The position numbers and the translations under genes are program-made. From positions 1 through 36,077 of IMG/VR virus record IMGVR_UViG_3300044237_000179: a stretch of DNA of 36,077 nt; one strand, written 5' to 3'. Under the pieces are notes generated by a model. It worked only from the letters and a program-made list of their open reading frames with translations, searched no databases and was not told the origin of the DNA. This stretch comes from a virus. Of the stretch, positions 291 to 36,077 are shown one piece after another (the stretch's first letter is position 1; every line of letters begins with the position of its first letter).

Positions 291-704
291 CTATTCCTTT
301 GTTGTCTCTGTTACTTGCTGAATCATAAGAATGCGTTTACGGCTCTTACAATCCGCTGCCCAGTCTTCTAGGACACCATCGCGCACGCAACTAATGTGGC
401 CCCTTGTATGTAACAAAAATGTTCCTGTTTTTGGCAGTACCCTAGTTGCTGTGGCTAAGGTCTTGGGCCAAGGGTGGTGCATAGATACCCAAGGATTATG
501 CTTATAACCTAAGTCTCTAAGGACTGAGTAAGTCCACACTTGATTAGTGCCCTTGCCTTGCTTGCGCCCTTTCTTATGTAGCAAACTACGGGCCTTGCCG
601 AAGGGTACTCGCGCCGCTACTGATACAGCAATGACAGCACAATAGCCTTCCTCTCTTGGGTAATACTTTCGCGCTACCCTTGATAGTTCTTCATAAGTGA
701 ACAT
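291..704 (-). CDS. Putative papain/C39-like cysteine peptidase
   Basis: This 137-aa protein carries what looks like a Cys-His-Asp arrangement. Cys22 lies in EGYCAVIAVSVAARVPF at the start of a predicted helix, His103 in TRGHISCVRDGVLEDW, and Asp109 or Asp114 follows. Short phage proteins with the order (D/G)C-helix, GTF(L/I)hhxxGH and DGVhhDW are common and are usually assigned a papain-like fold, but I know of no demonstrated substrate. The start is well supported by GGAGG six nt before the ATG. It is the first gene of the leftward arm, next to the iteron region, so it is probably expressed early. A role in modifying a host protein is a guess. Confidence 0.6.
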   Translation of the reverse strand: MFTYEELSRVARKYYPREEGYCAVIAVSVAARVPFGKARSLLHKKGRKQGKGTNQVWTYSVLRDLGYKHNPWVSMHHPWPKTLATATRVLPKTGTFLLHTRGHISCVRDGVLEDWAADCKSRKRILMIQQVTETTKE

Positions 705-1183: not shown

Positions 1184-1293
1184 CCTAAGTCTAACTGTTG
1201 TACTCTTTAGCGTACCTAAGTCTAACTGTTGGGCTTAGTGGTACGCCTAAGTCTAACTGTTGTACTCTGTTGTGCGCCTAAGACTAACTGTTG
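1184..1293 (+). repeat. Iteron array: four 17-bp repeats with exact 31-bp period
   Basis: CCTAAGTCTAACTGTTG is found at 1184-1200, 1215-1231 and 1246-1262. A fourth copy with one change (CCTAAGACTAACTGTTG) is at 1277-1293. The start-to-start distance is 31 bp every time, close to three helical turns, while the 14-bp intervals differ in sequence. Such arrays are typical binding sites for replication initiators or cooperative regulators. The array lies just before the AT-rich stretch and about 270 bp before the first structural gene. Confidence 0.8.
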
Positions 1294-2300: not shown

Positions 2301-2450
2301 ATGTTAGTGAGTACTAACAAAGACTACCTAAAGACTTTAGCACAACAAGAAGATCTAAACTGGGACGGTGATCCTGAGTTAGACGTAGAGTATGAGTGTG
2401 TAGAGGAAAAAGATCTTGATGAGTATGTAGTCAAGTGGTTTTATGACTAA
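2301..2450 (+). CDS. Small acidic protein, unknown function
   Basis: An ATG directly after the endolysin stop opens a 49-aa frame, MLVSTNKDYLKTLAQQEDL onward, that is strongly acidic and ends VKWFYD. It fills the gap exactly and overlaps the large terminase start by 8 nt, as expected for a coupled gene. There is no clear ribosome site, so it would depend on reinitiation after the endolysin. No family is recognised. Confidence 0.5.
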   Translation: MLVSTNKDYLKTLAQQEDLNWDGDPELDVEYECVEEKDLDEYVVKWFYD

Positions 2451-3693
2451 TCTTAACATACAACTACTGGATTGGCAAAAGGAAGTCTGGTCATCCGACA
2501 CCAGATTCAAGATTGTAGCTGCCGGTAGACGTACAGGTAAGTCCAGACTAGCAGCATGGATGTTGATAGTCAATGCTCTACAGGCAGACAAAGGCCATGT
2601 GTTCTATGTAGCTCCAACACAGGGACAGGCCAGAGACATCATGTGGCAAACACTATTGGAGCTAGCGCACCCTGTTGTAACCTCTAGTCACATTAACAAC
2701 CTACAGATTAAACTGGTCAACGGTGCAACCATAAGCCTCAAAGGTGCCGATAGACCTGAGACCATGCGCGGTGTATCACTAAAGTTCCTAGTGATGGACG
2801 AGTACGCAGACATGAAGCCAGAGGTTTTTGAGCAAATCCTTAGACCTGCCTTGGCTGACCAAAAGGGCGCTGCGCTGTTTATTGGTACGCCTATGGGACG
2901 TAATCACTTCTACGACCTGTACAAATACGCAGAGCTAGGTGACGATGAGTCCTATGAGTCATGGCACTTTACAAGCTATGACAACGAGTTGTTAGACCCA
3001 GACGAGATTGACCTAGCTAAAAAGTCTATGTCATCCTATGCCTTCCGTCAAGAGTTTATGGCATCCTTTGAAGCTAGAGGCTCAGAGATGTTTAAGGAAG
3101 ACTGGGTTGTGTTTGATGAAACACCTGACATAGGTGACTACTACATCAGTATTGACTTGGCTGGCTTTGAGGACGTAAGTAAGAAAAGAACTAAAAACTC
3201 TAAGCTGGATGAATCTGCAATTGCAGTAGTGAAGGTCAATGAAAACGGCTGGCACTTAGAGAACATCATACACGGTAGGTGGGACTTAGCGGAGACAGCT
3301 AGGAAGATATTTGAGGCTGTGCGGGACTACAGGCCCATCAGCGTAGGGATAGAGCGTGGTATTTCTAAGCAAGCTGTCATGTCACCATTGATGGACATGA
3401 TGAAGCAGTACGGTAGATTCTTTGTTGTAGAAGAACTAACCCACGGCAACCGTAAGAAAACAGACAGAATCATGTGGGCACTACAGGGTAGATTTGAGAA
3501 CGGTCAGATTACCTTGGGCAAGGGTGAGTGGAACAGTAAGTTTTTAGATCAACTGTTTCAGTTTCCTGACCCCTTGACACATGATGACCTTGTGGATGCT
3601 TTTGCGTACACAGACCAACTAGCTAAAGTAGCCTACAGTTATGACTTTGAGATTGATGATCTTGAAGTCTTGGACGTTGTAACAGGATATTAA
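2443..3693 (+). CDS. terL: Terminase large subunit (packaging ATPase and nuclease)
   Basis: This 416-aa motor protein translocates DNA into the capsid and cuts it. The N-terminal ATPase has the Walker A AGRRTGKS (residues 27-34), Walker B FLVMDE (115-120) and coupling motif IGTPMG (147-152). The C-terminal RNase H-like nuclease has Asp238 in SIDLAG, Glu304 in VGIERG and the Asp cluster of HDDLVDAFAY (380-389). The length is compact compared with T7 gp19 (about 590 aa) and similar to other short podoviral terminases. The start overlaps the upstream small ORF and has no strong ribosome site, which suggests coupled translation. Confidence 0.95.
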   Translation: MTNLNIQLLDWQKEVWSSDTRFKIVAAGRRTGKSRLAAWMLIVNALQADKGHVFYVAPTQGQARDIMWQTLLELAHPVVTSSHINNLQIKLVNGATISLKGADRPETMRGVSLKFLVMDEYADMKPEVFEQILRPALADQKGAALFIGTPMGRNHFYDLYKYAELGDDESYESWHFTSYDNELLDPDEIDLAKKSMSSYAFRQEFMASFEARGSEMFKEDWVVFDETPDIGDYYISIDLAGFEDVSKKRTKNSKLDESAIAVVKVNENGWHLENIIHGRWDLAETARKIFEAVRDYRPISVGIERGISKQAVMSPLMDMMKQYGRFFVVEELTHGNRKKTDRIMWALQGRFENGQITLGKGEWNSKFLDQLFQFPDPLTHDDLVDAFAYTDQLAKVAYSYDFEIDDLEVLDVVTGY

Positions 3694-7343: not shown

Positions 7344-7372
7344 TTGACAAATACGAAAAAGTATGATATAAT
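7344..7372 (+). promoter_or_regulatory. Consensus sigma70-type promoter upstream of the capsid cluster
   Basis: TTGACA (7344-7349), a 17-bp spacer and TATAAT (7367-7372) match the consensus perfectly. The flanks GCTTGACAAAT and GTATAGGTG resemble the promoter at 1499-1527. A leader of about 40 nt separates it from the ATG at 7421. It would boost scaffold and capsid transcription. Confidence 0.85.
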
Positions 7373-7420: not shown

Positions 7421-7687
7421 ATGACTCAAGAGTTAGAAACTTACTTCAACAATTACTTTGCGATGTTTCGTTCAGAAGGCTGGAAACAGCTAATCTCTGA
7501 TTTACAAGGTAATGTTGCACAGATCAACTCAGTAGAATTGACTACGGATAATGATAACTTGAACTTTCGCAAAGGACAGTTAGCTATCCTAGCAACAATC
7601 TTTAATCTTGAAACACAAATTGATAACGCTCATGCAGAAGCAGAATCAGGTGAAGACACTGAGGAAGCTCTAGATGAGGCTGTTTGA
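7421..7687 (+). CDS. Small acidic conserved protein
   Basis: This 88-aa, acidic protein starts MTQELETYFNNYFAMFRSE and reads GWKQLISDLQGNVAQIN, then a hydrophobic LAILATIF helix and an acidic tail (AESGEDTEEALDEAV). The upstream AAAGGTAAA is a modest ribosome site. It is the first gene after a strong promoter, and proteins of this size and composition often precede the scaffold gene in T7-like marine phages. Its function is unknown. The gene overlaps the following zinc-ribbon gene by 14 nt. Confidence 0.75.
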   Translation: MTQELETYFNNYFAMFRSEGWKQLISDLQGNVAQINSVELTTDNDNLNFRKGQLAILATIFNLETQIDNAHAEAESGEDTEEALDEAV

Positions 7688-10122: not shown

Positions 10123-12675
10123 GTGGCAGAGTCTTACTTTGACATAGATCTTAGTCAACTGCCCGTTGGCCTTGCTCCTCCACGCCCAAGAATTACTAGC
10201 GGCACAAGACCTACAGTTACCTCTGCGCCTTCAGTTAGTCAAATATCTCAAGGCTACGCACGTTTAGGGAGTGCTATAGATAGCTACCAGAATGCTTTGT
10301 CATCAGGTGCTGACTACTTTGACATTGATGATGTTGATTTAGTTGACCAGTACTACGATGATATTTTTAGAGATACGTTACGTACTGAGTCTGGCATTTT
10401 TTCTGACTTTGATATTGTAGGCGGAGAAGCAGGTATAGCTGGTGGGCCTCCACCTTCCGATACAATACGTGTTGATAGAAACACATATTTTTCTCAAGTA
10501 GATGCTCCTGATTACCTAAGAAACTTTAGAGCACCTGCAACACAGGAATCTGCTGTTTCTGCTTACTCAAGCATTGCTAATTTACAAAATACATCTGATA
10601 TTGCTTCTGCCCTTAGTAATTACTATGGGTATGAAATAACACCTGCTGAACAAAACTTAGGCAGGTTTGGAGGCAATCTTCAATCACACACAGGCACATC
10701 TAAAGCTCGCTTAGCGGAGTTTCATTCTCTTGTCGAGCCTATACTGTCTGAGCAACTACCCTATCTACAGACAGTAGAAGGACTAAGCTACGAAGATGCT
10801 CTAATAGAGTCTTACAAGCGTGACCCTATGCTACAGTCTTTGTATGCTAAGTACGATGTAAGCCCTATAAGACAAACTAAAGATGGATCTACATATCTTT
10901 ATGATCCGTTTACTTTTGGTGAGATTAGAACACTAGAAGTAAAAGATCCCAGTATTGGTGATATTGCTAAAAGTGTTTTACCTACGCTAGCATTATCAGC
11001 AATTTTAGGGCCAGCGGCTAGTGGAATTGTAGGGGGTTTAGGAGCTAAAGGAGCTACAGCTAACATACTGTCTAGCGCACTTACTAGTGCAGCATCGGCA
11101 GGAATACAGGGTGCTGACCTTGAGGATGCTCTAAAGGCAGGATTAATTAGTGGCGGCTTAACCTTTGCTGGCGATACTATTTCAGGATTACGCGAAGGAG
11201 GACAAGCAGGCGCTATAGACCCTAGTGCTCCAGAGTTAACTTTTGACCCTAGAGACCCTACTGTCCCTACTTCTGTGTCTCGTGATGTTATTGACACTGT
11301 TACTGGCACACTAACTGGTGGGGAAGTCGCTGATGCTTTAAGCCCTGTTTATGAGTTATACGATCAAGTAATTCAAGAGGTGGGTTTAGATACTTTTAAC
11401 AGTCCTGATTTTAACGTAGGTGCTTATCTAGCAGCCAGAGGAAGGCCAGACCTTCTTAATTTAGGCTTAGCATCTGCAACTCAAGAGGCTTTTTTATCAG
11501 GGAATCCTTTACGCACAGTAGAAAATTTAGAAAGATATGGCACAACTGGAGACTTACTTTCTCAAAGTCAAGCCACTCCTCCCGGCGGCATGGAGCTAAC
11601 CACTCAACAGTTTCCTGCAAGAACAACAACTGTTAAAGCAGATTTAGAGACTTTAGTTAAACCTGAACGTATTACAGAACGTCCTATTAGACCAACACAA
11701 ATGCCCGGAGGTGGCGGTGGAGCATCAGGTGGGGCAGCATCAGCACCAGCAACATCTGTAGTATCTCCTTCTGCCCCCAGCGCAACGGTAACACCTGTTG
11801 TACCGCAGCCTACATTTGCTGCACCGGGGTCAATTACTAGCTCTTTGTTTTCTAGTTTTGTTCCTGCATTAGCAGCAGCAGTAGCAGTAGCTCCACAACC
11901 TACAGTAGCTCCACCAATTACACCTGTAGCTACTACTGCCCCTACAAGCGAGCCTACCCCTCCTACGACTACACAACCTACGGACATTTTGGAGGACACT
12001 ACTGCTGAAGACACTACTGCCCAGATGGAGGCAGAAGCTGAAGCACAGAGACAAGCAGAAGCTGAAGCACAAAGGCAAGCTCAAGAAGAAGCACAGAGAC
12101 AAGCTCAAGAAGAAGCACAGAGGCAGGCACAAGCTGAAGCAGCACGTTTAGCTGAAGAAGCTAGAAAAGCAGCAGAAGCTAGGGCCGCAGCAGAGGCTAA
12201 AGCAGCAGCAGAGCAAGAAGCTATTGCTCAAGCAGAAGCTAGGGCAGTAGCAGCGGAAGCACGTTTAGCAGAACAACAAGCACAGGCTCAAGCTGATGCA
12301 GCCGCTGCTGAAGCTGCTAGGGCAGCAGATGCTCAAGCTCAAGCAGATGCTTTAGCAGAAGCTGTAGCTGCTGGAGAAGCTAGATACGGAGAAGCTGTAG
12401 CTGCTGGTGAAGCTCTAGGAGAGCAACGGTTTGGTGAAGGCAGGGGCCAAGGCAGAGGTGAAGGTGCTGGCGCAGGTATAGGTGCAGGGCTAGGCTTAGG
12501 TCTTCTTGCTGGCATGGGTGGGGGCGCTGGAGGCACTGGAGGCTATACACCACCTGACTTTGAGGACTATGACTTTAGAAAAACATATCAAGCCCCTGAG
12601 TTACTAGAGCTAGCGCCACAATACGAAAGTTATAAAGCCCCTACACTACAAGGGTTATTTAGAGGATTCATATGA
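10123..12675 (+). CDS. Large repeat-rich virion-like protein (GTG start)
   Basis: This 850-aa protein has a GTG start joined to the holin stop. Its parts are an Asp/Tyr-rich N-terminal half, hydrophobic Gly/Ala helices at about 280-360 (SVLPTLALSAILGPAASG), a Pro/Thr-rich linker (about 525-630), an Ala/Gln/Glu coiled coil with TolA-like octads (EAQRQAQE, about 635-770), and a Gly-rich segment before YTPPDFEDYDF. Membrane-active stretches and long coils suggest an ejected internal protein or tail-associated factor. I recognise no enzymatic motif. The following tube gene overlaps its end by 4 nt (ATGA). Function is inferred from context. Confidence 0.7.
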   Translation: MAESYFDIDLSQLPVGLAPPRPRITSGTRPTVTSAPSVSQISQGYARLGSAIDSYQNALSSGADYFDIDDVDLVDQYYDDIFRDTLRTESGIFSDFDIVGGEAGIAGGPPPSDTIRVDRNTYFSQVDAPDYLRNFRAPATQESAVSAYSSIANLQNTSDIASALSNYYGYEITPAEQNLGRFGGNLQSHTGTSKARLAEFHSLVEPILSEQLPYLQTVEGLSYEDALIESYKRDPMLQSLYAKYDVSPIRQTKDGSTYLYDPFTFGEIRTLEVKDPSIGDIAKSVLPTLALSAILGPAASGIVGGLGAKGATANILSSALTSAASAGIQGADLEDALKAGLISGGLTFAGDTISGLREGGQAGAIDPSAPELTFDPRDPTVPTSVSRDVIDTVTGTLTGGEVADALSPVYELYDQVIQEVGLDTFNSPDFNVGAYLAARGRPDLLNLGLASATQEAFLSGNPLRTVENLERYGTTGDLLSQSQATPPGGMELTTQQFPARTTTVKADLETLVKPERITERPIRPTQMPGGGGGASGGAASAPATSVVSPSAPSATVTPVVPQPTFAAPGSITSSLFSSFVPALAAAVAVAPQPTVAPPITPVATTAPTSEPTPPTTTQPTDILEDTTAEDTTAQMEAEAEAQRQAEAEAQRQAQEEAQRQAQEEAQRQAQAEAARLAEEARKAAEARAAAEAKAAAEQEAIAQAEARAVAAEARLAEQQAQAQADAAAAEAARAADAQAQADALAEAVAAGEARYGEAVAAGEALGEQRFGEGRGQGRGEGAGAGIGAGLGLGLLAGMGGGAGGTGGYTPPDFEDYDFRKTYQAPELLELAPQYESYKAPTLQGLFRGFI
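12034..12160 (+). repeat. Degenerate 24-nt repeats coding for EAQRQAQE octads
   Basis: Variants of GAAGCACAGAGACAAGC recur at about 12050, 12065, 12089 and 12113, giving an Ala/Gln/Glu heptad-like coil within the 850-aa protein. Such repeats can change in number by slippage. Confidence 0.6.
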
Positions 12676-13325
12676 GTACGCAATATCTAACAATAGTAAA
12701 CGAGGTACTGCGTCGGCTACGTGAAGACGAAGTATCTGCTGTAGCTAACACAGCTTACTCTAAAATGGTAGGTGACTTTGTAAACGATGCTAAGCGTATT
12801 GTAGAAGATTCACATGACTGGTCTACGTTACGAACAACTATTGTTGTCCCTACGGTAGCCGATACTACAGAATATAGCTTGACAAACGCTGGAGAACGTG
12901 TTAAAATATATAGTGCTATCAATGACACATCAAACTTTTTTATGCGCTATGAGTCACCTAACTGGTTTAATAACGCATATTATATCTCTGGTGAAGTCAC
13001 AGGCACTCCAGACTCCTATACGTTCAGTGGTATAGACAGTAATGAAGACACTAAGGTACAGGTGTATCCTAAGCCTGACGCAGTGTACTCTTTGCGCTTT
13101 GACCTTATTGCAAGAGAAGCTGAGTTATCTAACGATACAGACACTACAGTGTTACCTAAGAACGCTATTATCCACAATGCTGTAGCTTTGTTGGCTAGAG
13201 AGCGTGGTGAGACAGGCGGTACTACTGCACAGGATTATTTCTTAATTGCAGACAAGCATTTATCGGATGCTATTGCAATAGATGCCTACAAGAATCCTGA
13301 AGAATTTATCTACAGAGTACCCTAA
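12672..13325 (+). CDS. Tail tube protein A-like (adaptor)
   Basis: This 217-aa protein corresponds to T7 gp11/P22 gp4-type adaptor proteins that join the portal to the nozzle. The N-terminus MSTQYLTIVNEVLRRLRED followed by VGDFVNDAKRIVEDSHDWSTLR is the characteristic start of the family. The C-terminus AVALLARERGETGG...FLIADKHLSDAIA fits as well. Length is close to the usual 190-220 aa. It is coupled to the upstream gene by an ATGA overlap, and its stop overlaps the nozzle start (TAATG). Confidence 0.92.
   Translation: MSTQYLTIVNEVLRRLREDEVSAVANTAYSKMVGDFVNDAKRIVEDSHDWSTLRTTIVVPTVADTTEYSLTNAGERVKIYSAINDTSNFFMRYESPNWFNNAYYISGEVTGTPDSYTFSGIDSNEDTKVQVYPKPDAVYSLRFDLIAREAELSNDTDTTVLPKNAIIHNAVALLARERGETGGTTAQDYFLIADKHLSDAIAIDAYKNPEEFIYRVP
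12879..12907 (+). promoter_or_regulatory. Possible promoter inside the tail tube gene
   Basis: TTGACA (12879-12884), a 17-bp spacer and TAAAAT (12902-12907) lie within the coding sequence. The flanks CTTGACAAA and ATATATAG mirror those of the promoters at 1499 and 7344. It could add transcripts for the nozzle, fibre and internal proteins. This is based only on sequence similarity. Confidence 0.45.
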
Positions 13326-14845: not shown

Positions 14846-17232
14846 TGACTAATTATACAAAGACAACAAACTTTGCAACTAAAGACACTCTGCCTTCCGG
14901 CAATGCCAATAAGATTGTTAAAGGCACAGAGATTGATACAGAGTTTAATAACATTGCAACTGCTGTAGCAACTAAGGCAGACACTGCTGGCCCTACGTTT
15001 ACTGGTACTACAACTATACCAACTGTAGATATAAACGGTGGTGCTATAGACGGCACTACTGTAGGTGCATCTACTGCTGCTGCTATTACAGGAACAACTA
15101 TTGTAGCTAACACCAGTATTAACATTGCGGGTGATGGTGCTACTGTAACTGGTATTAAAGATGAAGACGATATGTCTTCTAACAGTGCAACTAAACTAGC
15201 TACACAACAGTCAATTAAAGCCTATGTAGACTCTCAGGTAACTGCACAAGACTTAGACTTCCAAGCAGACTCCGGTGGTGCTCTAAGCATTGACTTAGAC
15301 TCAGAGACACTTACGTTTACTGGCGGCACTGGTGTAGACACTAGCGGCTCTGGTAACGCTGTAACCTTTGCTATTGACAGCACTGTAGTGACTCTCACAG
15401 GCTCTCAGACGCTAACCAATAAAATACTTACATCGCCTACACTTAACACACCTACTATTGGTACTTCGTTTACTATTGGCTCCGCTACAATTACTGAAGC
15501 AGAACTAGAGATTCTGGATGGTGCTACAGTAACTACAGCAGAGCTAAATATCCTAGATGGTGTTACAGCTACTGCTGCTGAACTAAATATCCTAGATGGT
15601 GTCACTAGCACTACAGCAGAGCTAAATATCCTAGATGGTGTTACAGCTACTGCTGCTGAACTAAATATCCTAGATGGTGTCACTAGCACTACAGCAGAGC
15701 TAAATATCCTAGATGGTGTCACTAGCACTACAGCAGAGCTAAATATCCTAGATGGCGTTACTGCTACCACCGCAGAATTGAACTACCTTGATGGTGTTAC
15801 TTCAGCAGTCCAGACCCAGTTAGATGCTAAGGCACCTACAGCTAATCCCACATTCACTGGTTCTTTTACCTCGCCCGGTATTGATGACAACGCAGATGCC
15901 ACGGCGATTACTATTGATAGTTCTGAGAATGTCGGTATTGGCACTAGCAGTCCTACTTTTGCCGCTGGAGGAGGACTTCAAGTACAAACTGACACTTTTT
16001 CATCAGTTCGTGTTACGGAAACAGGAAATACAGGACTTGATATAGCTCAAGCATCTGATGCAAAAGGTTATGTTTATTTGCGAGACAATGCTGATTTGCT
16101 GTTCGGTACAAACAATACAGAACGCATGCGCATCGACGCAAGCGGGAATGTTGGTATTGGTACTACGCCAGCCCATAAATTACACGTTGCGGATGCTACA
16201 ACTCCAGAAATTATTGTTGAAGATACCACTAATAATGTAAAAGCAGTTTTGGGTGCAGACAACTCTGTAGGTCGCATAGGCACTGACACTAATCATCCTG
16301 TTACCTTTAGAACCAACGACACAGAACGCATGCGCATCGACTCTAGCGGCAATGTCAAAATATCCACATCTAATTCTGGCAACGACGTTGAGTTACGCAT
16401 ACAGAACAGTGCTGTATCTAGCGGCGACACAGCAACACTACGTTTTTCTGTTACATCTAACTCAGCATTTGATTCTGCATTTGTTGGCTCAGATAGAAAT
16501 AATGCTTTGATTTTAGGCTCCAATGCCGCAGAACGCATGCGCATCGACTCTAACGGCAATTTTTTGGTGGGTGACACGTCGGCTACTTTCAATGACACAG
16601 CAAAAACTGTAATACGCCCTTCTTCTGATAACTGGGTTATCAAAGCAGCTGTTTGTACTAGCTTTAATCGCACAGCCTCAAATGGAGACATTTTAGAGTT
16701 TTATCAGGGGTCTTCGACCAAAGTCGGTAGTATTGGTAGTAGGGGCAGCAGTGACTCTTACATCTTATTAGGCGGCGCAGGTTTAACGGGATCAGTCACA
16801 AGCACTGGCGCATTGCTGCCCACAAAAACAGCAAATAGTTTTGACGATGATGTAATCGACTTAGGTTTTAGTGGCGCTAGGTTCGATGACATCTACGCAA
16901 CCAACGGCACTATCCAGACATCAGACCGCAATGAGAAGCAAGACATTGAAGCACTCTCTGACGCAGAGCAACGTGTCGCTGTAGCGGCTAAAGGTTTACT
17001 ACGCAAGTTCAGATGGATTAGCAGCGTTGAGGAGAAAGGCGACGATGCTCGTATCCACTTTGGAATCATCGCACAAGACCTACAGGCAGCATTTGAAGCT
17101 GAAGGTTTAGACGCTGGACGTTACGCAATGTTTATCAACTCAACATGGACTGACGAAGAAACTGGTGAGGAACGTAGCCGCATGGGTGTGCGCTACTCTG
17201 AACTTCTAGCCTTCATCATCGCAGCAATCTAA
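14845..17232 (+). CDS. Tail fibre with 13-aa repeats and S74 chaperone domain
   Basis: This 795-aa receptor-binding fibre has an N-terminal attachment region (about 1-60, NKIVKGTEIDTEFNNIA), a shaft with eight 13-aa AELNILDGVTxTx repeats (219-322), three ERMRIDxxGN segments, and a C-terminal Peptidase_S74 intramolecular chaperone from about residue 690. The S74 Ser-Lys dyad is visible as Ser693 and Lys698 in TSDRNEKQDI, so the domain should cleave itself off after trimer folding. The C-terminal GVRYSELLAFIIAAI is typical of the domain. The ATG overlaps the nozzle stop by one base. Confidence 0.93.
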   Translation: MTNYTKTTNFATKDTLPSGNANKIVKGTEIDTEFNNIATAVATKADTAGPTFTGTTTIPTVDINGGAIDGTTVGASTAAAITGTTIVANTSINIAGDGATVTGIKDEDDMSSNSATKLATQQSIKAYVDSQVTAQDLDFQADSGGALSIDLDSETLTFTGGTGVDTSGSGNAVTFAIDSTVVTLTGSQTLTNKILTSPTLNTPTIGTSFTIGSATITEAELEILDGATVTTAELNILDGVTATAAELNILDGVTSTTAELNILDGVTATAAELNILDGVTSTTAELNILDGVTSTTAELNILDGVTATTAELNYLDGVTSAVQTQLDAKAPTANPTFTGSFTSPGIDDNADATAITIDSSENVGIGTSSPTFAAGGGLQVQTDTFSSVRVTETGNTGLDIAQASDAKGYVYLRDNADLLFGTNNTERMRIDASGNVGIGTTPAHKLHVADATTPEIIVEDTTNNVKAVLGADNSVGRIGTDTNHPVTFRTNDTERMRIDSSGNVKISTSNSGNDVELRIQNSAVSSGDTATLRFSVTSNSAFDSAFVGSDRNNALILGSNAAERMRIDSNGNFLVGDTSATFNDTAKTVIRPSSDNWVIKAAVCTSFNRTASNGDILEFYQGSSTKVGSIGSRGSSDSYILLGGAGLTGSVTSTGALLPTKTANSFDDDVIDLGFSGARFDDIYATNGTIQTSDRNEKQDIEALSDAEQRVAVAAKGLLRKFRWISSVEEKGDDARIHFGIIAQDLQAAFEAEGLDAGRYAMFINSTWTDEETGEERSRMGVRYSELLAFIIAAI
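15499..15810 (+). repeat. Eight tandem 39-bp repeats in the fibre gene
   Basis: Units start at 15499, 15538, 15577, 15616, 15655, 15694, 15733 and 15772. The pair 15538-15615 is identical base for base with 15616-15693, so a 78-bp two-unit block was duplicated recently. The outer units are more diverged. Each unit codes AELNILDGV plus four residues, a triple-helical or beta-helical shaft motif. Confidence 0.9.
16118..16548 (+). repeat. Three dispersed 20-bp repeats coding for ERMRID
   Basis: CAGAACGCATGCGCATCGAC occurs exactly at 16118-16137, 16322-16341 and 16529-16548. Each marks the start of an ERMRID(A/S)(S/N)GN shaft segment. It contains the palindrome ATGCGCAT. Flanking sequence is diverged, so identity is concentrated in these cores. 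Confidence 0.8.
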
Positions 17233-28845: not shown

Positions 28846-29680
28846 TCACCACCTCCGTTAAGAACCTTGGCCCTGTTGAGTACAAGAATGTACGTAGCTC
28901 AGGATAGCAAGCATGTTTGAAGTGACAGTAAGAGCAACCTGTAGCCAGCTTCATGTTGCCTGACTTACCATCAGGTACAGGCTGATGACATAGTTCAGGG
29001 GGTTCTTCCTGCTGTACCATCTCCTTTACGTGGATGATGCGCTCTGTAATGTCCTTCTTTAGAACCTCGTAGACAGGAGCCTGTGTATCCTCTAGGTCAT
29101 ACTTTAGGTAAGTCAAGTGACCGTTAGCTTTGTCCATAGCCAGCCAGCCTACTTGTGTCTCACCTTCAGACTTAGCGTATCCTTTGATTTGATCTATGTA
29201 CCCAAAGGGGTCATCAAATGCAAGCGTAGCATCTTTGAACTTCTTGAAGCCATAGCTGCTGGCTGACTTAACGTCAGTCACTATGCCATCAATTTTGCAG
29301 TCCATGCTACCTGAGATACCTTCTACGGTGGCCTGTGCTTGCTCATGTGTCACTGTATGACCAGCTAGACGCGCAAACAGGAGCAACATTTCCTCAATCA
29401 AATGACCGTACATAAACTTTACAAGCGTATGTGGCTGCATTTTCTCCTTCGGCCCCACATTGTTGTAATGGTTCCACAGGTATCTGTCGTCCTTGCCTAT
29501 GTTGGACATACGCAACTTGCGCCCATCAAAGCTACCACGACTGGTAAACTCTTTACGCATAAGGTCTTTACATGCTTCACCAAAGTCATCTATGATTTGT
29601 TCAGCGTCCACTGACCTATCCGGTGTTTTAGTTTTCACCAAAGCATAAATGTCATCTATCAGGGTGTTAGTTGTCTTCAT
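28817..29680 (-). CDS. RecB/Cas4-like PD-(D/E)XK exonuclease with Cys cluster
   Basis: This 287-aa protein is probably the DNA exonuclease of the phage, filling the place of T7 gp6. Residues are visible in the order His93 and Glu96 (YGHLIEE), Asp131 (CKIDG), Asp136 and Lys138 (DVKSAS), followed by a Q-containing helix, which is the PD-(D/E)XK layout. Cys231, Cys249, Cys252 and Cys258 (GCSYCHFKHAC) suggest a Cas4/AddB-type iron-sulfur cluster. ATG 29680 is preferred over 29692 since it limits overlap with the upstream gene to 14 nt. Neither start has a strong ribosome site. Confidence 0.85.
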   Translation of the reverse strand: MKTTNTLIDDIYALVKTKTPDRSVDAEQIIDDFGEACKDLMRKEFTSRGSFDGRKLRMSNIGKDDRYLWNHYNNVGPKEKMQPHTLVKFMYGHLIEEMLLLFARLAGHTVTHEQAQATVEGISGSMDCKIDGIVTDVKSASSYGFKKFKDATLAFDDPFGYIDQIKGYAKSEGETQVGWLAMDKANGHLTYLKYDLEDTQAPVYEVLKKDITERIIHVKEMVQQEEPPELCHQPVPDGKSGNMKLATGCSYCHFKHACYPELRTFLYSTGPRFLTEVVNEPKVQEIT

Positions 29681-30215
29681 TGAAGTATCCATCTAGTATT
29701 TCTTTAGCTACTGGGGCAGAGATTACAAACCATTCGTTCTTACTGGCATGAGTTTTCCTCAGTAACTCATGTATCTCACTCTCTGCTTTACGCCTGTCAT
29801 CAGTGTCATAAGCCTTTATCAAGATGTAATCCCTGTATGGGCTACCTGTTTGAAATTGCTTGAGCCTGTCCTCTGCGTCCACTGCCATGCCTATCTTAAC
29901 CCAGCTAGGGTAAGCAGGGCTGTACAGGATGTACACTTGTCCTTGCTTTGAAGTCTTGTAGTTATCTAAAGACTCAAAGGCTGCATCACCAAAGGACTTG
30001 TAGCGTCCGGGTTTGTGCAATGGATGATTTTTAGATATATATTTGCCATTGACATACATTCTATTTGGATTATGTATTTTTCTATTAGGATTACAACAAT
30101 TTTTACATTGTGTTCTGTTGATTTTTTTCCAAGAAAGATTCCAATTAGTATCTGTTAGTTCCACACCACACGTATTACAATTTTCTTTAATGTGTTTCTG
30201 CCCAACTACTTCCAA
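29667..30215 (-). CDS. GIY-YIG (T5orf172/MUG113-type) nuclease with zinc finger
   Basis: The protein has an N-terminal Cys4 finger (CNTCGVEL ... TQCKNC) like that of free-standing homing endonucleases. It is followed by a GIY-YIG domain of the T5orf172 type: VYILYSPAYPSWVKIGMA, LKQFQTGSP, AESEIHELL and EWFVIS. The C-terminus is acidic. It probably cuts DNA, perhaps as a mobile endonuclease. TTG 30215, preceded by AGGAG at nine nt, gives 182 aa and a 29-nt overlap with the polymerase. The open frame extends to ATG 30341, but that would overlap the polymerase by 155 nt. The start is uncertain. Confidence 0.8.
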   Translation of the reverse strand: MEVVGQKHIKENCNTCGVELTDTNWNLSWKKINRTQCKNCCNPNRKIHNPNRMYVNGKYISKNHPLHKPGRYKSFGDAAFESLDNYKTSKQGQVYILYSPAYPSWVKIGMAVDAEDRLKQFQTGSPYRDYILIKAYDTDDRRKAESEIHELLRKTHASKNEWFVISAPVAKEILDGYFNEDN

Positions 30216-31902
30216 CTTTGTAGTCTCCTGTGAGCTTACAGTTAAGCCCAAGTTCAATTCCTGCTGCTTCCAAGCAGGATACTGCGAGTCTTCCGTACTT
30301 GTCTGCTTGGTCTGATCTAACTTCTGCTTGTACTTCATCATGGATGTTCCCTACAAAGTAGTAATCAAGACCCCATAGTTTAGCATACTCTTGTAACAAG
30401 CACAAGGCTTTTTTCATTACAATTGCACCCGCACTTTGGAGTAAGGTGTTCAAGGCTGCATGTTCTGACCTGATGTGTAGTAGCCTACCATCTAGTCCAT
30501 TGATCCGACCCTGTACTGCCTCTTGACTAATTCTTCCTTTAAGATCTGCATATGCTGGGAGATTAGACATAAATCGCTCTCTAAGCAGTCTACCAGCACT
30601 TGCGCCTCCTCCCGCCACCGTACCAAGTTTTGCGTCTCCAGCACCGTACAGCAGCGCGTAGATGAAAGTTTTTGCTGAATCTCGTGATTCAAGTCCCGCA
30701 AGGTGCTGGTTAGCAGTATGGATGTCTCCTCCAATGACTTCATTCGTATAGTCCTCGTCGTTCATGTAATGGGCCAACATGCGTAGCTCTAGGCCACTAG
30801 CATCAAAACCTACAAGTTTATAGCCGTCTCTAGCAATCCAGCACTGTCGGCATTCTTTGCCATACGGTGAGTATCCTGCCGGTACTTGGGCTAAGTTAGG
30901 TTTAGAGTGCGTCATCCTGCCGGTTACAGCGCCGTTGGTGTTAACGTAGCCATGCACTCTATCTGTCTCTGGGTCAGCTTCATCAACCCAGGACTGTACC
31001 TGTGCTACACGTTTTTGTAACATCAGGTACTCAGCAATCAATGCTGCCTGTGGTATGTCCTTGACAGTAGACAGCACTGCTTCGTCTACCATTGGTTGAC
31101 CTGTAGGCGTTAGCTTGCAAGGCTCCCATCCAAAGTCAATCAAGTACTCGCCTATCTGCTGTCTTGATCCAAGGTTAAATGGCTTCAATGCTCTACGCAT
31201 AAAGGGAGACCTATCGCCTGACTGTTGTACCTGTTGGTATTCATCGTCGGTGAGTCCAACTTTAGACAAGCTGCCATCTTTTTTAGTCTTCGGCACTACC
31301 TGTTTAACGTCAACCCACTTAGGCTTGAATACTTTGTGTACTTCGTCCTCGACAACCAGCTTACGCTCCTTTAGGGTAGCAAGCAAGTCCATAGCATGTC
31401 GCATGTCCAAGAGCCAGCCATTGCGTATTTGCTCCTGCATGATCCACTGTACTTCATGTTCAAGGTCAATGGATTCCTGCTTAAACTTACGTAGCTCTAG
31501 CTTTAGCTTGTTGTATGCCTTAGCTGTCACATGAACATCCTGCACACAGTAGTCAACCATTTCCTTTGACAGGCATGTCCAGTCATCATGGTCTCCTTTG
31601 CCGCCCCATACTGCTAGCTTATGTCCACCTTCACGTTGGGGATTAGCAAGTCTTGATAACACCAAGGTGTCCCTGACTCTGCTTCTGTCCACTGTGATGT
31701 GCCATAGCTTATCCAGCACTGGTAGGTCAAAGCCTATCAGGTTGTGCCCTACTACAGGGAAGTTACCTGTGAGAGCCTGTGAGAGACTGTCACGATCATA
31801 GTGAGCATGTACTACATCGTCCTGCATAGTCACAGCTACCCATATGGTATCAGGGTCAAGACCATTCGTCTCTATGTCAAGGAACATAGGCTTATAGCTC
31901 AT
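30187..31902 (-). CDS. Family A DNA polymerase (T7-like)
   Basis: This 571-aa replicative polymerase has a 3'-5' exonuclease domain (Asp9 and Glu11 in FLDIETNGL, HNLIGFD at 53-59, YCVQDV at 118-123) and a complete polymerase domain: TGRMTHSKPNLAQVP (about 327-341), motif A VGFDASGLELR (Asp367), motif B AKTFIYALLYGAG, motif C HDE (521-523). The end SWAETH is typical of the T7 group. It is shorter than T7 gp5 (704 aa). ATG 31902 is preferred because AAGGAGG (31912-31918) lies 9 nt upstream, whereas it touches ATG 31911. Confidence 0.96.
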   Translation of the reverse strand: MSYKPMFLDIETNGLDPDTIWVAVTMQDDVVHAHYDRDSLSQALTGNFPVVGHNLIGFDLPVLDKLWHITVDRSRVRDTLVLSRLANPQREGGHKLAVWGGKGDHDDWTCLSKEMVDYCVQDVHVTAKAYNKLKLELRKFKQESIDLEHEVQWIMQEQIRNGWLLDMRHAMDLLATLKERKLVVEDEVHKVFKPKWVDVKQVVPKTKKDGSLSKVGLTDDEYQQVQQSGDRSPFMRRALKPFNLGSRQQIGEYLIDFGWEPCKLTPTGQPMVDEAVLSTVKDIPQAALIAEYLMLQKRVAQVQSWVDEADPETDRVHGYVNTNGAVTGRMTHSKPNLAQVPAGYSPYGKECRQCWIARDGYKLVGFDASGLELRMLAHYMNDEDYTNEVIGGDIHTANQHLAGLESRDSAKTFIYALLYGAGDAKLGTVAGGGASAGRLLRERFMSNLPAYADLKGRISQEAVQGRINGLDGRLLHIRSEHAALNTLLQSAGAIVMKKALCLLQEYAKLWGLDYYFVGNIHDEVQAEVRSDQADKYGRLAVSCLEAAGIELGLNCKLTGDYKVGSSWAETH

Positions 31903-33541
31903 TGACTGCATCCTCCTTTGGCTTGCTGGTCTCTGCCATTCTACCAGTAAAGTTATCGTACTTTAGGTAGCAACAAGCCCCTGTCAAACCTGAGTACCGA
32001 TTCTTGAGAACACGCACTGTGGTTGTATTGCGTTTCTCAGGGTTATCGTCCTGCTGGTCACGTTCCAAGCCTATCACCATGTCGGATAGCTGAGCGATAG
32101 CCTGTGAGCCTCTTAGTTCACTTAGGCTAATCTGCCCACCGTCCTCGTGTGCTTTGCCTTGGGTACGCTTTAGGTGTGACACAAGGAACAAACCTACGCC
32201 TAGCTCCTGCACCAGTGACCGTAGCTTGGTCATAATAGCGTCAATGGCTTTGCGCTCATCGGCGTTATCCTGTGCTGACACAACAATGGACAGGTGGTCT
32301 AGGAAGATCCACTTGCAGTCCAAAGCCTTAGCCATATACCTGACCCTAGCCAACAGATTGTCCTCGCTGGTGCTGCCCCAATGGTCAAACAAGTAGTACC
32401 TGCCTGTGCCTAGAGTTTCCTCCCAGATAGGAAATGCCATGTCAGTGTCTAAGTCTTCCTCAAGGTGCAATGGGCAGTCAGCGTGTACCGACATGATTCC
32501 CAGTGCTGTCCTCGCTACATCTTCCTCCAATGCTAGGATTCCAATGTTGTCCTCTGTGGCGTTTAGTAGGTAGTACTCTAACTCCCGCACCATCTGGCTT
32601 TTGCCCATGCCTGACCCTGACGTTATCGTCACTAGCTCATATGGTCTAAAGCCTTTGGTGTAGACGTTCAAGCCCTGCCAAGGGTAAGGTATTGACTTTA
32701 CCTTAATCTTGTTGGTCAAGGCATCCCATGTGTCACTACCCTGAACAATGCCGTCAGGTTGATACACCTTGGCATTCCACCATGCGCCGGTAAAGTCTCG
32801 CACCTTGTTGGCTACTAACATTTCGTTAGCGTCCTTCAAGGGTAGCTTTACTATCTTCAGCTTGCTTGGTGAGAACAAGTCCTTGATGTCATCCACGGCC
32901 TGTTGGCCTGCCTTGTCACCATCAAAGCAAACAACCACGTTGTCGTAACCTTCGAGGAAGTCTAGGTTTTCCTTTATCTCCTTGGCTGCTGATGATGCAC
33001 CGTTACGCAATGAGACCACATCCCACTTACGCTCGAACATTTCAGACACGCTGAGAGCGTCTACCTCGCCTTCTGTGATGGTTATGTACTTACCCTTACC
33101 TTTGCACGTCTGTTGACCAAATAAGCCCACATTGGTGGTTATATCGCCTGTAACGTGAAAGTCTTTGGTTTTCACATGGCGAATCTTTGTGGCCTTTAGT
33201 TCGTCACTGTCGGTGCTGTAGTAGGGGTATATGTGCTTTGCTATCTCACCGGCAGCGTTGTACTCCACCATGACACCGTACTTTCTACACGTCTCTTGGC
33301 TAAGTCTTCTGTCGGGTATAGCTGCAACAACACCTGATGATGTCATATCTTCCAATGGCCTCCTTGGTTGGGGCTGTAGTGTTACTACATTGCCATTTGA
33401 TTGTTCGTGATGACCGCAACCTGCTGAAAAGCAATGCGCTGACCCGCTGCTATAGCGAGCCAGTGCATCTTTAGAACCACACTGGGGGCATGGTTCATGC
33501 CTTACAAACGGATCATCCTTGCCGTGGTTATAGCTCTGCAT
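31892..33541 (-). CDS. Bifunctional primase-helicase (T7 gp4-like)
   Basis: This 549-aa protein unwinds the fork and makes primers. It has an N-terminal zinc ribbon (Cys18, Cys21, Cys37, Cys42), a TOPRIM primase domain (Glu157 in TEGEVDAL; Asp207 and Asp209 in CFDGDKAG) and a RecA-like helicase domain with Walker A GSGMGKS (309-315), LALEED (336-341) and Walker B WIFLDHLS (411-418). Length matches T7 gp4A (566 aa). It overlaps the ssDNA-binding gene by 14 nt and contains the polymerase ribosome site in its last codons, so the three replication proteins are coupled. Confidence 0.96.
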   Translation of the reverse strand: MQSYNHGKDDPFVRHEPCPQCGSKDALARYSSGSAHCFSAGCGHHEQSNGNVVTLQPQPRRPLEDMTSSGVVAAIPDRRLSQETCRKYGVMVEYNAAGEIAKHIYPYYSTDSDELKATKIRHVKTKDFHVTGDITTNVGLFGQQTCKGKGKYITITEGEVDALSVSEMFERKWDVVSLRNGASSAAKEIKENLDFLEGYDNVVVCFDGDKAGQQAVDDIKDLFSPSKLKIVKLPLKDANEMLVANKVRDFTGAWWNAKVYQPDGIVQGSDTWDALTNKIKVKSIPYPWQGLNVYTKGFRPYELVTITSGSGMGKSQMVRELEYYLLNATEDNIGILALEEDVARTALGIMSVHADCPLHLEEDLDTDMAFPIWEETLGTGRYYLFDHWGSTSEDNLLARVRYMAKALDCKWIFLDHLSIVVSAQDNADERKAIDAIMTKLRSLVQELGVGLFLVSHLKRTQGKAHEDGGQISLSELRGSQAIAQLSDMVIGLERDQQDDNPEKRNTTTVRVLKNRYSGLTGACCYLKYDNFTGRMAETSKPKEDAVNEL

Positions 33542-33899
33542 CTATCCCACTGCTGTCCTCGGCTACCTCTACTACCCTAATAGCATTCAGGTATGTAGGC
33601 GTGCCGTGTACAGGGTGCGGAGTGCCTGTCTTATAGCTTAGGCGTACCACAGAACCCCGTGGGATGTTACCCACAAAAGGCTGATCGTTAGCGTCAATCA
33701 CCTTGACGTTGAACTTACTAGCAAACTTGCGTTGCTTGTCTCCATTGTAGTCCTTCAGCTTTACACCTTGTTCAGACAAAATCTGTGCGTTTTCATCGTC
33801 CAAGGTTACAGTTAGGGTATACCGTCCTGTGTCCTGTCCGTTATACACCTCTGTGCTGTCCAAGTGAGCGAATGCTGCTTTACCACTTACTACTGCCAT
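33528..33899 (-). CDS. ssDNA-binding protein (T7 gp2.5-like)
   Basis: This 123-aa OB-fold-like protein should coat single-stranded DNA at the fork. The start MAVVSGKAAFAHLDSTEVYN and the middle GRYTLTVTLDDENAQ, NVKVIDANDQPFVG and GSVVRLSYKTG fit gp2.5/DUF2815-type proteins. It is much shorter than T7 gp2.5 (232 aa). The C-terminus EVAEDSSGIDAEL is only mildly acidic and lacks the terminal aromatic residue of T7. AGAGGT 7 nt before the ATG is the ribosome site, preceded by an unusual 10-bp repeat array in the leader. Confidence 0.85.
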   Translation of the reverse strand: MAVVSGKAAFAHLDSTEVYNGQDTGRYTLTVTLDDENAQILSEQGVKLKDYNGDKQRKFASKFNVKVIDANDQPFVGNIPRGSVVRLSYKTGTPHPVHGTPTYLNAIRVVEVAEDSSGIDAEL

Positions 33900-33910
33900 G
33901 TTATCTACCT

Positions 33911-33950
33911 CTAAAGTTTACTAAAGTTAACTAAAGAGAACTAAAGATAT
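33911..33950. repeat. Four 10-bp direct repeats (CTAAAG) in the leader of the ssDNA-binding gene
   Basis: CTAAAGTTTA, CTAAAGTTAA, CTAAAGAGAA and CTAAAGATAT follow without gaps. They lie in the 5' leader of the leftward replication operon, directly upstream of its ribosome site. A strict 10-bp period suggests either phased DNA binding or repeated RNA binding sites. Confidence 0.8.
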
Positions 33951-33991
33951 ATCATAATGATTAACATAATGTTTACCTTTGTTCTCTTTAG
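33931..33991. promoter_or_regulatory. 11-bp inverted repeat in the replication operon leader
   Basis: CTAAAGAGAAC (33931-33941) is the perfect reverse complement of GTTCTCTTTAG (33981-33991). The 39-bp AT-rich loop contains two direct CATAATG copies (33953-33959 and 33965-33971). It lies between the likely promoter and the ssDNA-binding start codon. Confidence 0.6.
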
Positions 33992-33997
33992 AGTACT

Positions 33998-34024
33998 AGT
34001 ATATCATTATTTTCCTTGTGTCAA
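33998..34024 (-). promoter_or_regulatory. Likely leftward promoter of the replication operon
   Basis: On the leftward strand TTGACA (34024-34019) is followed after 15 bp by TATACT (34003-33998). The spacing is short, and TACTAG at 17 bp is a weaker alternative -10. The -35 overlaps the end of the preceding zinc-finger ORF. It would drive ssDNA-binding protein through the reductase genes. Confidence 0.55.
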
Positions 34025-34183
34025 CCTCCTTACCTCTAAAAGTTTGTTATACAATTCTTGGACATCGTTATCCTGCACCTTTTGCTCTGGGAATCTAGCT
34101 TTGATTGACTCTACGTTGCACGGGTGACATAGATCACCTTTATCTGTGTCTTCCATGAGTGCATTACATGCCTTGCATCGCAT
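34007..34183 (-). CDS. Small zinc-finger protein
   Basis: ATG 34183, with GGAGG 9 nt upstream, gives a 58-aa protein starting MRCKACNALMEDTDKGDLCH. Two C-x2-C knuckles (CKAC and CHPC) form a likely zinc ribbon, followed by a charged helix. Longer translation from ATG 34207 is possible but has poorer initiation signals. The function is unknown; DNA or protein binding is plausible. Confidence 0.7.
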   Translation of the reverse strand: MRCKACNALMEDTDKGDLCHPCNVESIKARFPEQKVQDNDVQELYNKLLEVRRLTQGK

Positions 34184-34184
34184 G

Positions 34185-34424
34185 TCAATGTACCTCCTGT
34201 GACTCATTGCCGACCAATTGCGCGTATAAGGACTCTAATTCGTCCGTAGGGCGACTTTCAAGGTCTTGTGATAGGTAAGCACTGCACATGGCTAACATTT
34301 CGCTAACGGCCATCACGTTGAGTCTGTACTCACTCAAGGTTTGCACTATCATGTCGCGCCTTTGTTGCTCTGGGTCTGGTTCTTGGTCATCCGTCACGTC
34401 TTCCTGCCAATATGTTGTGCTCAT
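34185..34424 (-). CDS. Small acidic helical protein
   Basis: This 79-aa protein opens MSTTYWQEDVTDDQEPDPEQ and then forms helices (RDMIVQTLSEYRLNVMAVSEM). GAGGTG lies 5-6 nt before the ATG. It overlaps the upstream ORF by 4 nt. Its stop lies 2 nt before the zinc-finger ATG at 34183. No family is recognised. Confidence 0.7.
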   Translation of the reverse strand: MSTTYWQEDVTDDQEPDPEQQRRDMIVQTLSEYRLNVMAVSEMLAMCSAYLSQDLESRPTDELESLYAQLVGNESQEVH

Positions 34425-34585
34425 TTCACCACCTCAGTCAGTCCATGCCAATCATTAATCTTCAAGCCTGCCAGCTTCCTGTCATGTGGTATATACCATG
34501 ATCGTAAGCCAAGGTGCAAGCCAGTATAACAGCGGCCCCTTGTGAGGCCATAACGGGTTTTTTCTTTGCGTAGTCTGTAAATCAT
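34421..34585 (-). CDS. Small basic protein, unknown function
   Basis: ATG 34585, with AAGGA 9 nt upstream, opens a 54-aa frame MIYRLRKEKTRYGLTRGRCY followed by TGLHLGLRSWYIPHDRKLAG. Starts and stops overlap neighbours as ATGA on both sides, which supports translation. It is rich in Arg, Gly and aromatics. No family is recognised. Confidence 0.65.
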   Translation of the reverse strand: MIYRLRKEKTRYGLTRGRCYTGLHLGLRSWYIPHDRKLAGLKINDWHGLTEVVK

Positions 34586-34716
34586 TGCTTTTTTTCCTTA
34601 CGGGTTGTTTTCTTTTTGCCTGTGTAGCATGAGACGCACTGTAGCGCCCCGGCATCTTTTGCTAGTAGTTCTGCGGGTTTGAGTGTACCACAAGTGTTGC
34701 ACGGTTGCACTGTCAT
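34582..34716 (-). CDS. Tiny zinc-ribbon protein
   Basis: ATG 34716 opens a 44-aa frame MTVQPCNTCGTLKPAELLAK with a second knuckle CVSC and a basic end (KKKTTRKEKK). The two C-x2-C pairs are 18 residues apart. ATGA overlaps join it to the genes on both sides. Function is unknown. Confidence 0.65.
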   Translation of the reverse strand: MTVQPCNTCGTLKPAELLAKDAGALQCVSCYTGKKKTTRKEKKQ

Positions 34717-34981: not shown

Positions 34982-35137
34982 TTAGTTAGTGAGTCCGATT
35001 AGCATAACCCAGACAATCCAAACAAACAAGACCCCAGACAGCATGACGCTACCGTTTGTTGTTGCTCTATAGATTGCTTCCTGCCTTCTTTCTTCTTCTC
35101 TTTCTTCTCTTATGGTCTTTGTGTAGTCTTTTCGCAT
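34982..35137 (-). CDS. Small single-span membrane protein
   Basis: ATG 35137 overlaps the preceding stop by one base and has GGGGAG about 10 nt upstream. The 51-aa product has a highly charged N-terminal helix (MRKDYTKTIREEREEERRQE) and one transmembrane segment (VMLSGVLFVWIVWVMLIGL). The layout is that of small early phage membrane proteins that interfere with host functions, but this is only analogy. Confidence 0.7.
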   Translation of the reverse strand: MRKDYTKTIREEREEERRQEAIYRATTNGSVMLSGVLFVWIVWVMLIGLTN

Positions 35138-35382
35138 TATTTTAGGTCTCCCCTAGTGAATCCAAAGCGAGCCAAAGACTGCACAAGGTGACGTTCTAAA
35201 ACCTCGGCCTCGCTTATTTCTTCCTTTGTCCTTCGTTCTATGTCGCTGTGTGCTATCTGTAGGCGCATGTCGGGCAATTCTTCGCGGAAAAGTCTAACGT
35301 TAAAGAATGGCCCAGAGGCGCTGTCTACTGTCTCAATGGTGGCGAATGTGTCGCCTGTGGTGTTTGTTGCGGTTCTTATCAT
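35137..35382 (-). CDS. Small early protein, unknown function
   Basis: This 81-aa protein opens MIRTATNTTGDTFATIETVD and has FFNVRLFREELPDMRLQIA (strands), then a charged helix (RRTKEEISEAEVLERHLVQS) and FGFTRGDLK. AAAGGAG lies about 10 nt before the ATG. It follows the Cys-rich protein by 21 bp. No family is recognised. Confidence 0.7.
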   Translation of the reverse strand: MIRTATNTTGDTFATIETVDSASGPFFNVRLFREELPDMRLQIAHSDIERRTKEEISEAEVLERHLVQSLARFGFTRGDLK

Positions 35383-35403: not shown

Positions 35404-36077
35404 TTAAATGTTAACCACTGGCACCAGTGCCGTGTTGAAGTTTGCTGCTCGTTTACCGTGTACCGTAATCGCTACGGATTGCTTTTTACCATCACACAAG
35501 CCACATTGCAAGCACGACAGACCTTGGCTATCTGCTAGGCATTCAATCTCACCGGACATGAGAGAATCACCAGCCATTGCTACCCTGAAAGTCTGAAAGC
35601 CTTGTTTCTGGTACTTGGTGGCCTGTCGTGGGCTATCGGCGCTGACCATGCACAATGTAGCAATGCGAGCATCGAAAGCCTTGTGCCTAGCTTGGTGAGT
35701 GTATCCAGTGTGACCGATGCACAAGTCAGTGATTGTCTGCCATACGGTAAACGGTGCCGCTGCAGGGTCGCCATATGCGCCGAGGCGTACCTTGCGACCG
35801 GCAAACAATGCCGCATGATCTGCTAAGTTGAATGCTGGATATTTACCGGCTTTGTATGTCCGATATACCGCTGCCGGTGCTTGGTGCACTGTAACGTAAC
35901 AAGCGCCGCCTGTGCTTTGTCGGTGAACACAATTGCCGCAGATAGAGGAATCAGCGCCAAGTTCTAAAGCCTCTAAAGGGTGCATGTCGCTGCGGATGAT
36001 CCACGTCTGCACCATGTCGCCTGTTTTGACATTGGAAGACTTGAGCGTAGCGATAACGGCTATTGGTGCTCCATCAA
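35404..36077 (-). CDS. Cys-rich conserved phage protein (main part; gene crosses contig ends)
   Basis: This is the C-terminal and central part of a gene whose first codons lie at the other end of the contig (ATG at 213). Joining complement 35404-36077 to 129-213 gives one uninterrupted 252-aa frame. The protein has clustered cysteines: ICGNC, ACYV about 13 residues later, and a C-terminal set in ECLADSQGLSCLQCGLCDG. These suggest a bound metal or iron-sulfur cluster. The segments RLGAYGDPAA and GHTGYTHQ match, from memory, a widespread phage and plasmid protein of unknown function. No catalytic assignment can be made. It follows the cysteine peptidase-like gene and precedes a small ORF (35137-35382) in the same leftward transcription unit. 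Confidence 0.85.
   Translation of the reverse strand, partial: DGAPIAVIATLKSSNVKTGDMVQTWIIRSDMHPLEALELGADSSICGNCVHRQSTGGACYVTVHQAPAAVYRTYKAGKYPAFNLADHAALFAGRKVRLGAYGDPAAAPFTVWQTITDLCIGHTGYTHQARHKAFDARIATLCMVSADSPRQATKYQKQGFQTFRVAMAGDSLMSGEIECLADSQGLSCLQCGLCDGKKQSVAITVHGKRAANFNTALVPVVNI
35952..36077. repeat. Terminal direct repeat of 126 bp (copy of 3-128)
   Basis: Bases 35952-36077 equal 3-128 exactly. The overlap falls inside a coding gene whose frame continues smoothly when the ends are joined. Its length is near common assembler k-mer sizes, so it most likely marks a circularised assembly of a circularly permuted or terminally redundant genome, rather than the true packaging repeat. Confidence 0.95.

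Follow-up and report, generated by a model that had tools for sequence, protein, structure and literature searches.

The phage lambda origin carries four iterons (Stx phages have six) beside an AT-rich tract and is subject to transcriptional activation by RNA polymerase (PMC3985674, PMC7466680). The chromosomal DnaA unwinding system is built from a DnaA box, a GC-rich spacer and DnaA-trios (PMC8287927). Related phages can also differ in how they replicate – mycobacterial extrachromosomal prophages carry different replication systems, RepA-based or RNA-based (PMC7157519).

We analyzed an array of four 17-bp boxes in IMG/VR virus record IMGVR_UViG_3300044237_000179 (the window; all 36,077 bp), together with the slot that this array occupies in related genomes. 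Some relatives carry the same boxes (type A), and others fill the slot with sigma54-type promoter elements (type C) or DnaA boxes (type D). The lambda origin is similar in its four (to six) direct repeats of 17–19 bp beside an AT-rich tract and in the host RNA polymerase transcription nearby. Unlike the lambda iterons, which are more closely packed and lie inside the initiator gene O, the boxes of the window are intergenic and spaced ~31 bp, and the window has no recognised O- or P-like gene. Iteron plasmids of the P1/F/RK2 type likewise have direct repeats and an AT-rich region; the window differs from them in its ~31-bp period and in having no recognised Rep gene. The kinship to plasmid iterons proposed in the initial annotation was not supported by a search against 72,556 plasmids, which returned no match to the array (E ≤ 1), and a search against named phages returned only three weak matches to Vibrio phages, inside RNA polymerase genes (E 0.5).

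Type-D relatives resemble bacterial oriC in that their DnaA boxes, at 11-bp steps, precede a G-rich stretch and then AT-rich DNA. In contrast, the exact DnaA box TTATNCACA is absent from the slot of the window and from those of all 32 distinct type-A regions; the single exact copy in the window genome lies at 13168. Sigma54 -24/-12 promoters fill the same slot in type C with GG-N10-GC spacing, but the boxes of the window are unlike the sigma54 consensus, and TTGGCAYG-N4-TTGCA, the sigma54-type element, does not occur in the window. The modules of the mycobacterial prophages serve prophage maintenance and include an initiator protein or RNA encoded by the phage, whereas here it is the binding sites that switch.

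Genomic context of the array

The assembly is circular – positions 35950–36077, the final 128 bases, repeat positions 1–128 with one mismatch, and a leftward gene matching phrog_2554 crosses the record junction. The array is housed in an 860-bp gap between a leftward early arm and a rightward packaging and structural arm, limited on one side by an ORF at 291–704 (-) and on the other by a putative small terminase gene starting at 1565 (+). This gene (1565–1957, +; 130 aa) is the first of the rightward arm and precedes the large terminase gene (2443–3693, +; phrog_2, E 8e-43). Its product has a Pfam AT_hook match above the cut-off and no terminase family match, and we name it from its position and the AT hook. 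The rightward arm also has endolysin-type peptidase, portal, capsid and tail genes. Two ORFs of the window contain internal repeats, an 850-aa ORF with Ala/Glu-rich repeats at 12031–12494 and a 795-aa ORF, possibly a tail fibre, with 39-bp repeats at 15498–15801.

The leftward arm encodes a T7-type primase-helicase (31892–33541, -; phrog_239), a weakly matching Gp2.5-like single-stranded DNA-binding protein (SSB; 33528–33899, -), a DNA polymerase, an exonuclease, an endonuclease and a class-I ribonucleotide reductase. A different protein takes the place of the SSB-like gene in the type-C relative G004. Between the exonuclease and DNA polymerase genes, a T5orf172/MUG113 (GIY-YIG-type) ORF at 29667–30341 overlaps the polymerase ORF and varies among relatives. 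In agreement with the initial annotation, no RNA polymerase was recognised among the scanned proteins, which comprised part of the ORFs and included several large (structural) ones without a family match.

Positions 1–24000 of the window had zero megablast matches in a collection of named phages, and hundreds of close relatives are present in IMG/VR. We also sought the host through relatives of the large terminase in 84,980 genomes; this approach was set aside, as the matches lay on short contigs binned to unrelated phyla.

A four-box array beside the least stable 200 bp of the genome

Three boxes are exact copies of CCTAAGTCTAACTGTTG (1184–1200, 1215–1231 and 1246–1262, all +) and the fourth, CCTAAGACTAACTGTTG (1277–1293, +), differs from it by one change. 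These are the sole matches in the 36,077 bp at up to three mismatches on either strand; dinucleotide-shuffled sequences gave a mean of 0.23 matches and never reached four. The four copies described in the initial annotation are thus borne out, and TRF also recovered the array (1184–1293, period 31, score 114). A possible degenerate box in the same register lies 31 bp before box 1 (1153–1169, +; about 9 of 17 positions identical), and in some relatives a box can be recognised further upstream within the array. Left of the boxes, at 1073–1091, two copies of AGTTAGAC – the reverse complement of the box core GTCTAACT – lie 11 bp apart, and the same is seen in several type-A relatives.

To the right of the boxes follows a conserved core (1312–1375, +) with a G-run (GGTACGGGGGG) and, after it, TTATTGTAGTAGGCACT...CAAAAG. 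Most regions of types A, C and D have the G-run, TAGTAG-CAC and then CAAAA...AAAATTAG directly right of the array. The TAGTAG run is suggestive of DnaA-trios, for which it is a candidate by sequence.

The claim that an AT-rich stretch follows the array also held. This stretch, a candidate unwinding element at 1373–1572, has the lowest duplex stability of any 200-bp window in the genome (-1.095 kcal/mol per step, against a genome mean of -1.341 and a standard deviation of 0.056), and it starts ~80 bp right of the last box. The same stretch is the least stable in 8 of 11 genomes (the window, G001–G004, G007, G015 and G016) and the second lowest in the other three (G005, G006 and G008), starting about 170–200 bp before the terminase start. 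Elsewhere in the window, the gap at 33911–33990, upstream of the SSB gene of the leftward arm, is very AT-rich, contains 10-bp repeats (CTAAAGTTAA-like) and includes the genome's lowest-stability 100-bp window; it is a possible second control site or origin.

Inside the least stable window lies a perfect sigma70 promoter for the rightward arm (1499–1527, +; TTGACA-17-TATAAT with TG), a relaxed form of which is present in 22/22 type-A, 22/22 type-C and 8/10 type-D regions. A second near-perfect sigma70 promoter (TTGACA-17-TATAAT, 7344–7372) is found in the gap preceding the ORF at 7421, within another very AT-rich spot that is kept in relatives. For the leftward arm, the candidate early promoter region (1109–1170, -) has TATATAGT at about 1117–1124 with TTGAGA-like elements upstream and no standard sigma70 match. 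DNA conservation among type-A genomes stops at 1111–1113, near the expected leftward start point. We rejected a leftward sigma70 match within the core (TTGAGA-17-AATAAT, 1372–1344), whose -10 appears, by eye, to be unconserved between array types.

The array in type-A relatives

The same boxes occur in 32 distinct regions, giving 111 distinct units with the consensus CCTWAGTCTAACTGTTR and the core TAAC.GTT. The AAC and the TT near the end are invariant, and most box positions exceed 1.6 bits while the intervals drift. The array keeps the same offset from the putative small terminase gene in more than 30 distinct relatives. Most arrays contain 3–5 boxes, and across 33 arrays the spacing was 31 bp (60 times), 29 bp (15), 32 bp (14), 37 bp (5), 43–44 bp (6) or 68–71 bp (2). 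The spacing thus stays near three helical turns and is inexact across relatives.

The intervals are mostly variants of a few recurrent modules (TACTCTNTNGNGNN, GGCTTAGTGGTGCG and GCGCCAGGTGGTGCG), which points to duplication, shuffling and turnover of units rather than to independent sequences held to one length. The initial annotation, in which intervals of differing sequence but constant length implied selection on the spacing, therefore overstated the case, since period and copy number vary and the intervals are related. Comparison with relatives showed that the position of the array is kept, but the exact 31-bp period, though real in the window genome, gives way to 29, 31 or 32 bp among them.

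Other arrays in the same slot

Type-D slots, seen in 12 distinct regions, hold 3–11 DnaA boxes (TGTGGATAA/TTATGCACA), often at 11-bp steps, with the last box beside the G-run and the AT-rich core beyond. They thus present clustered DnaA boxes beside AT-rich DNA, as expected of a DnaA-dependent origin. Deep branches of the phage family likewise have DnaA arrays next to the same G-run. Tandem DnaA-box arrays were in addition seen in many IMG/VR contigs (L225–L279), some of which have no detectable relative of the terminase, helicase or polymerase of this phage family.

Type-C slots (23 distinct regions) hold 2–8 AGTTGGCAYGNNNNTTGCATG elements that correspond to the sigma54 -24/-12 consensus with GG-N10-GC spacing and match E. 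coli sigma54 sites such as that of pspG (TTGGCATGATTCTTGTA). Most lie on the leftward strand, toward the early genes, and several type-C relatives have elements in both directions. In the slot upstream of the small-terminase gene, L185 and L201 carry sigma54-type elements both ways, at ~47–57-bp steps in one orientation. Background frequencies in the right arm were 0.0055 DnaA boxes and 0.0018 sigma54-type elements per 360 bp, with at most one in any right-arm window, and in the complete type-C genomes G004–G007 sigma54-type elements are confined to the slot. None of the three motifs was present in number in 34 of the 108 distinct regions.

Switching of array types

On a tree of the right arm (FastTree, 124 regions), the array types A, C and D changed at least 14 times in a sample biased by the fetching of part of the contigs by array motif. 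Of the pairs that differ in type, the closest is L061 (D) with L063 (C): the first 2.1 kb of their right arms are 97.6% identical, and their large terminases are identical. This similarity stops at -217 from the small-terminase start, next to the G-run, which lies at -208. Between the window (A) and G004 (C), DNA is shared from 1312 rightwards, making the left edge of the core a recombination boundary; leftwards from 1312, no similarity is detectable as far as the helicase gene (33353). It follows that the array travels with the left arm, and the core with the right. In other pairs, detectable similarity starts further right, by up to ~160 bp.

Candidate binding proteins

Consistent with the earlier statement that no plasmid-type Rep is visible, we found no Rep, O or helix-turn-helix match above the cut-off among the early proteins scanned. 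The zinc-ribbon ORF at 34007–34207, put forward as a specific binder, lost its appeal because its homologues accompany all array types. A 54-aa protein (34421–34585) was also rejected, being present in the type-C genome G004 and giving a poor structure model.

Within the set examined, early-gene clusters at 34582–34716, 34982–35137 and 35137–35382 were limited to type A, an association between protein and array that comprises only 2–3 independent switches. The last of these encodes an 81-aa protein (35137–35382, -) found only with type-A arrays in that set, in 15 of 17 type-A regions. Its model has a beta4-alpha fold (pLDDT 88.5), for which the best fold matches (PUR repeats and LEF-3) were not significant (Foldseek E ≥ 0.1, Z < 5), and we regard it as a weak candidate for the array binder. 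The binder is possibly host-encoded, because no phage initiator gene is recognisable and the two alternatives that occupy the slot are both made up of host-protein sites.

Possible functions of the slot

Our main reading, to which we give about an even chance, is that the array is the initiator-binding (iteron) array of an origin and control hub, comparable to a DnaA-box array or the lambda O iterons and recognised by a protein that may come from the host. One sequence-specific DNA-binding protein would occupy the boxes side by side, and the resulting complex would strain and open the AT-rich stretch at 1373–1572. The phage primase-helicase and DNA polymerase would then load at the opened stretch, and host RNA polymerase at the 1499–1527 promoter may assist. 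Protein binding, strand opening and origin activity at the array are all predicted here from the arrangement of the DNA: several direct repeats of one binding-site length with adjacent AT-rich, easily melted DNA, as in iteron origins. Tandem DnaA boxes are a hallmark of replication origins; the type-D arrays beside AT-rich DNA look like origins, and the type-A array fits the same role by analogy. The leftward arm, which starts at this region, contains the replication genes. An origin of the T7 type, fired by a phage polymerase, seems unlikely, as no RNA polymerase was recognised among the proteins scanned.

Some observations temper the origin reading. Sigma54-type promoter elements make up the third type of array, and these suggest transcription rather than initiation. 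The strong promoter inside the AT-rich stretch could alone explain its low stability, and the AT-rich stretch at 33911–33990 with its 10-bp repeats could be the origin instead. The GC-skew check advised in the initial annotation did not discriminate either way – the sign changes at ~23.6 kb, where gene orientation changes, and not at the antipode of the array at ~19.2 kb, and skew that tracks gene orientation cannot locate an origin. Of the iteron-origin layout first described, the conserved position, the DnaA boxes in the slot of relatives and the adjoining least stable duplex stand in its favor; the plasmid kinship and the exact period do not.

The main rival, possible but on the doubtful side, is that the boxes serve the leftward early promoter as activator or repressor sites, which would make the slot a switch that adapts early transcription to the host. 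The early genes would be turned on or off by a regulator, from the host or from the early phage genes, bound at roughly -60 to -180 relative to the early start; sigma54 elements would serve in one group of relatives, DnaA would act as a transcription factor in a second, and some other regulator would do so here. This would account for the sigma54-type elements of type C, which point mostly toward the early genes and, in the complete genomes, keep to the slot, and for the end of type-A conservation near the leftward transcript start. Several type-C relatives have these elements both ways, however, unlike a simple early promoter, and left of the array we found no clean sigma70 -35/-10 for the leftward arm. 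Clusters of 7–11 DnaA boxes are typical of origins, and DnaA-regulated promoters normally use far fewer. Origin and transcription roles may coincide in the slot, just as transcription assists the lambda origin.

A location 240–380 bp upstream of the putative small terminase gene might instead make the array and G-run a cos or pac region in which the boxes are small-terminase binding sites, and a family-wide conserved G-run core would suit a cleavage site. We consider this very unlikely because terminase genes do not follow array type: the arrays switch while the terminases barely change (as in the L061/L063 pair), and neither DnaA boxes nor sigma54 elements are sites for a terminase. Contig ends show no pile-up at the core and full-length contigs break at scattered places, although ends of metagenome contigs are weak evidence. 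Scarcely any probability attaches to a selfish or neutral tandem repeat whose units grow and shrink in number through slippage and recombination and which has no function. Variable copy number and intervals made of shuffled modules do indicate ongoing duplication, but a repeat of this kind would not be expected to hold most box positions above 1.6 bits in 111 units while its intervals drift, or to keep its place next to the core when the slot of other relatives is occupied by sites of known proteins.

Returning to the reading of the array as part of an origin and control hub, we can extend it to an abundant, uncultivated family of aquatic phages with a fixed 'adapter slot' beside the origin core that repeatedly swaps site arrays for different host starters: DnaA, sigma54 holoenzyme and, in type A, a third protein of the host that has so far not been known to act as an initiator for phages or plasmids. 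We offer this extension as speculation that is unlikely to hold in full. If true, it would bear on how infection begins in T7-like phages without an RNA polymerase of their own. The recognition step would be a small exchangeable cassette in phages whose packaging genes, structural genes and core DNA are nearly identical. Array type should then predict the host factor used, giving a handle on host range, and the type-A box provides a ready bait for the initiator or regulator that recognises it.
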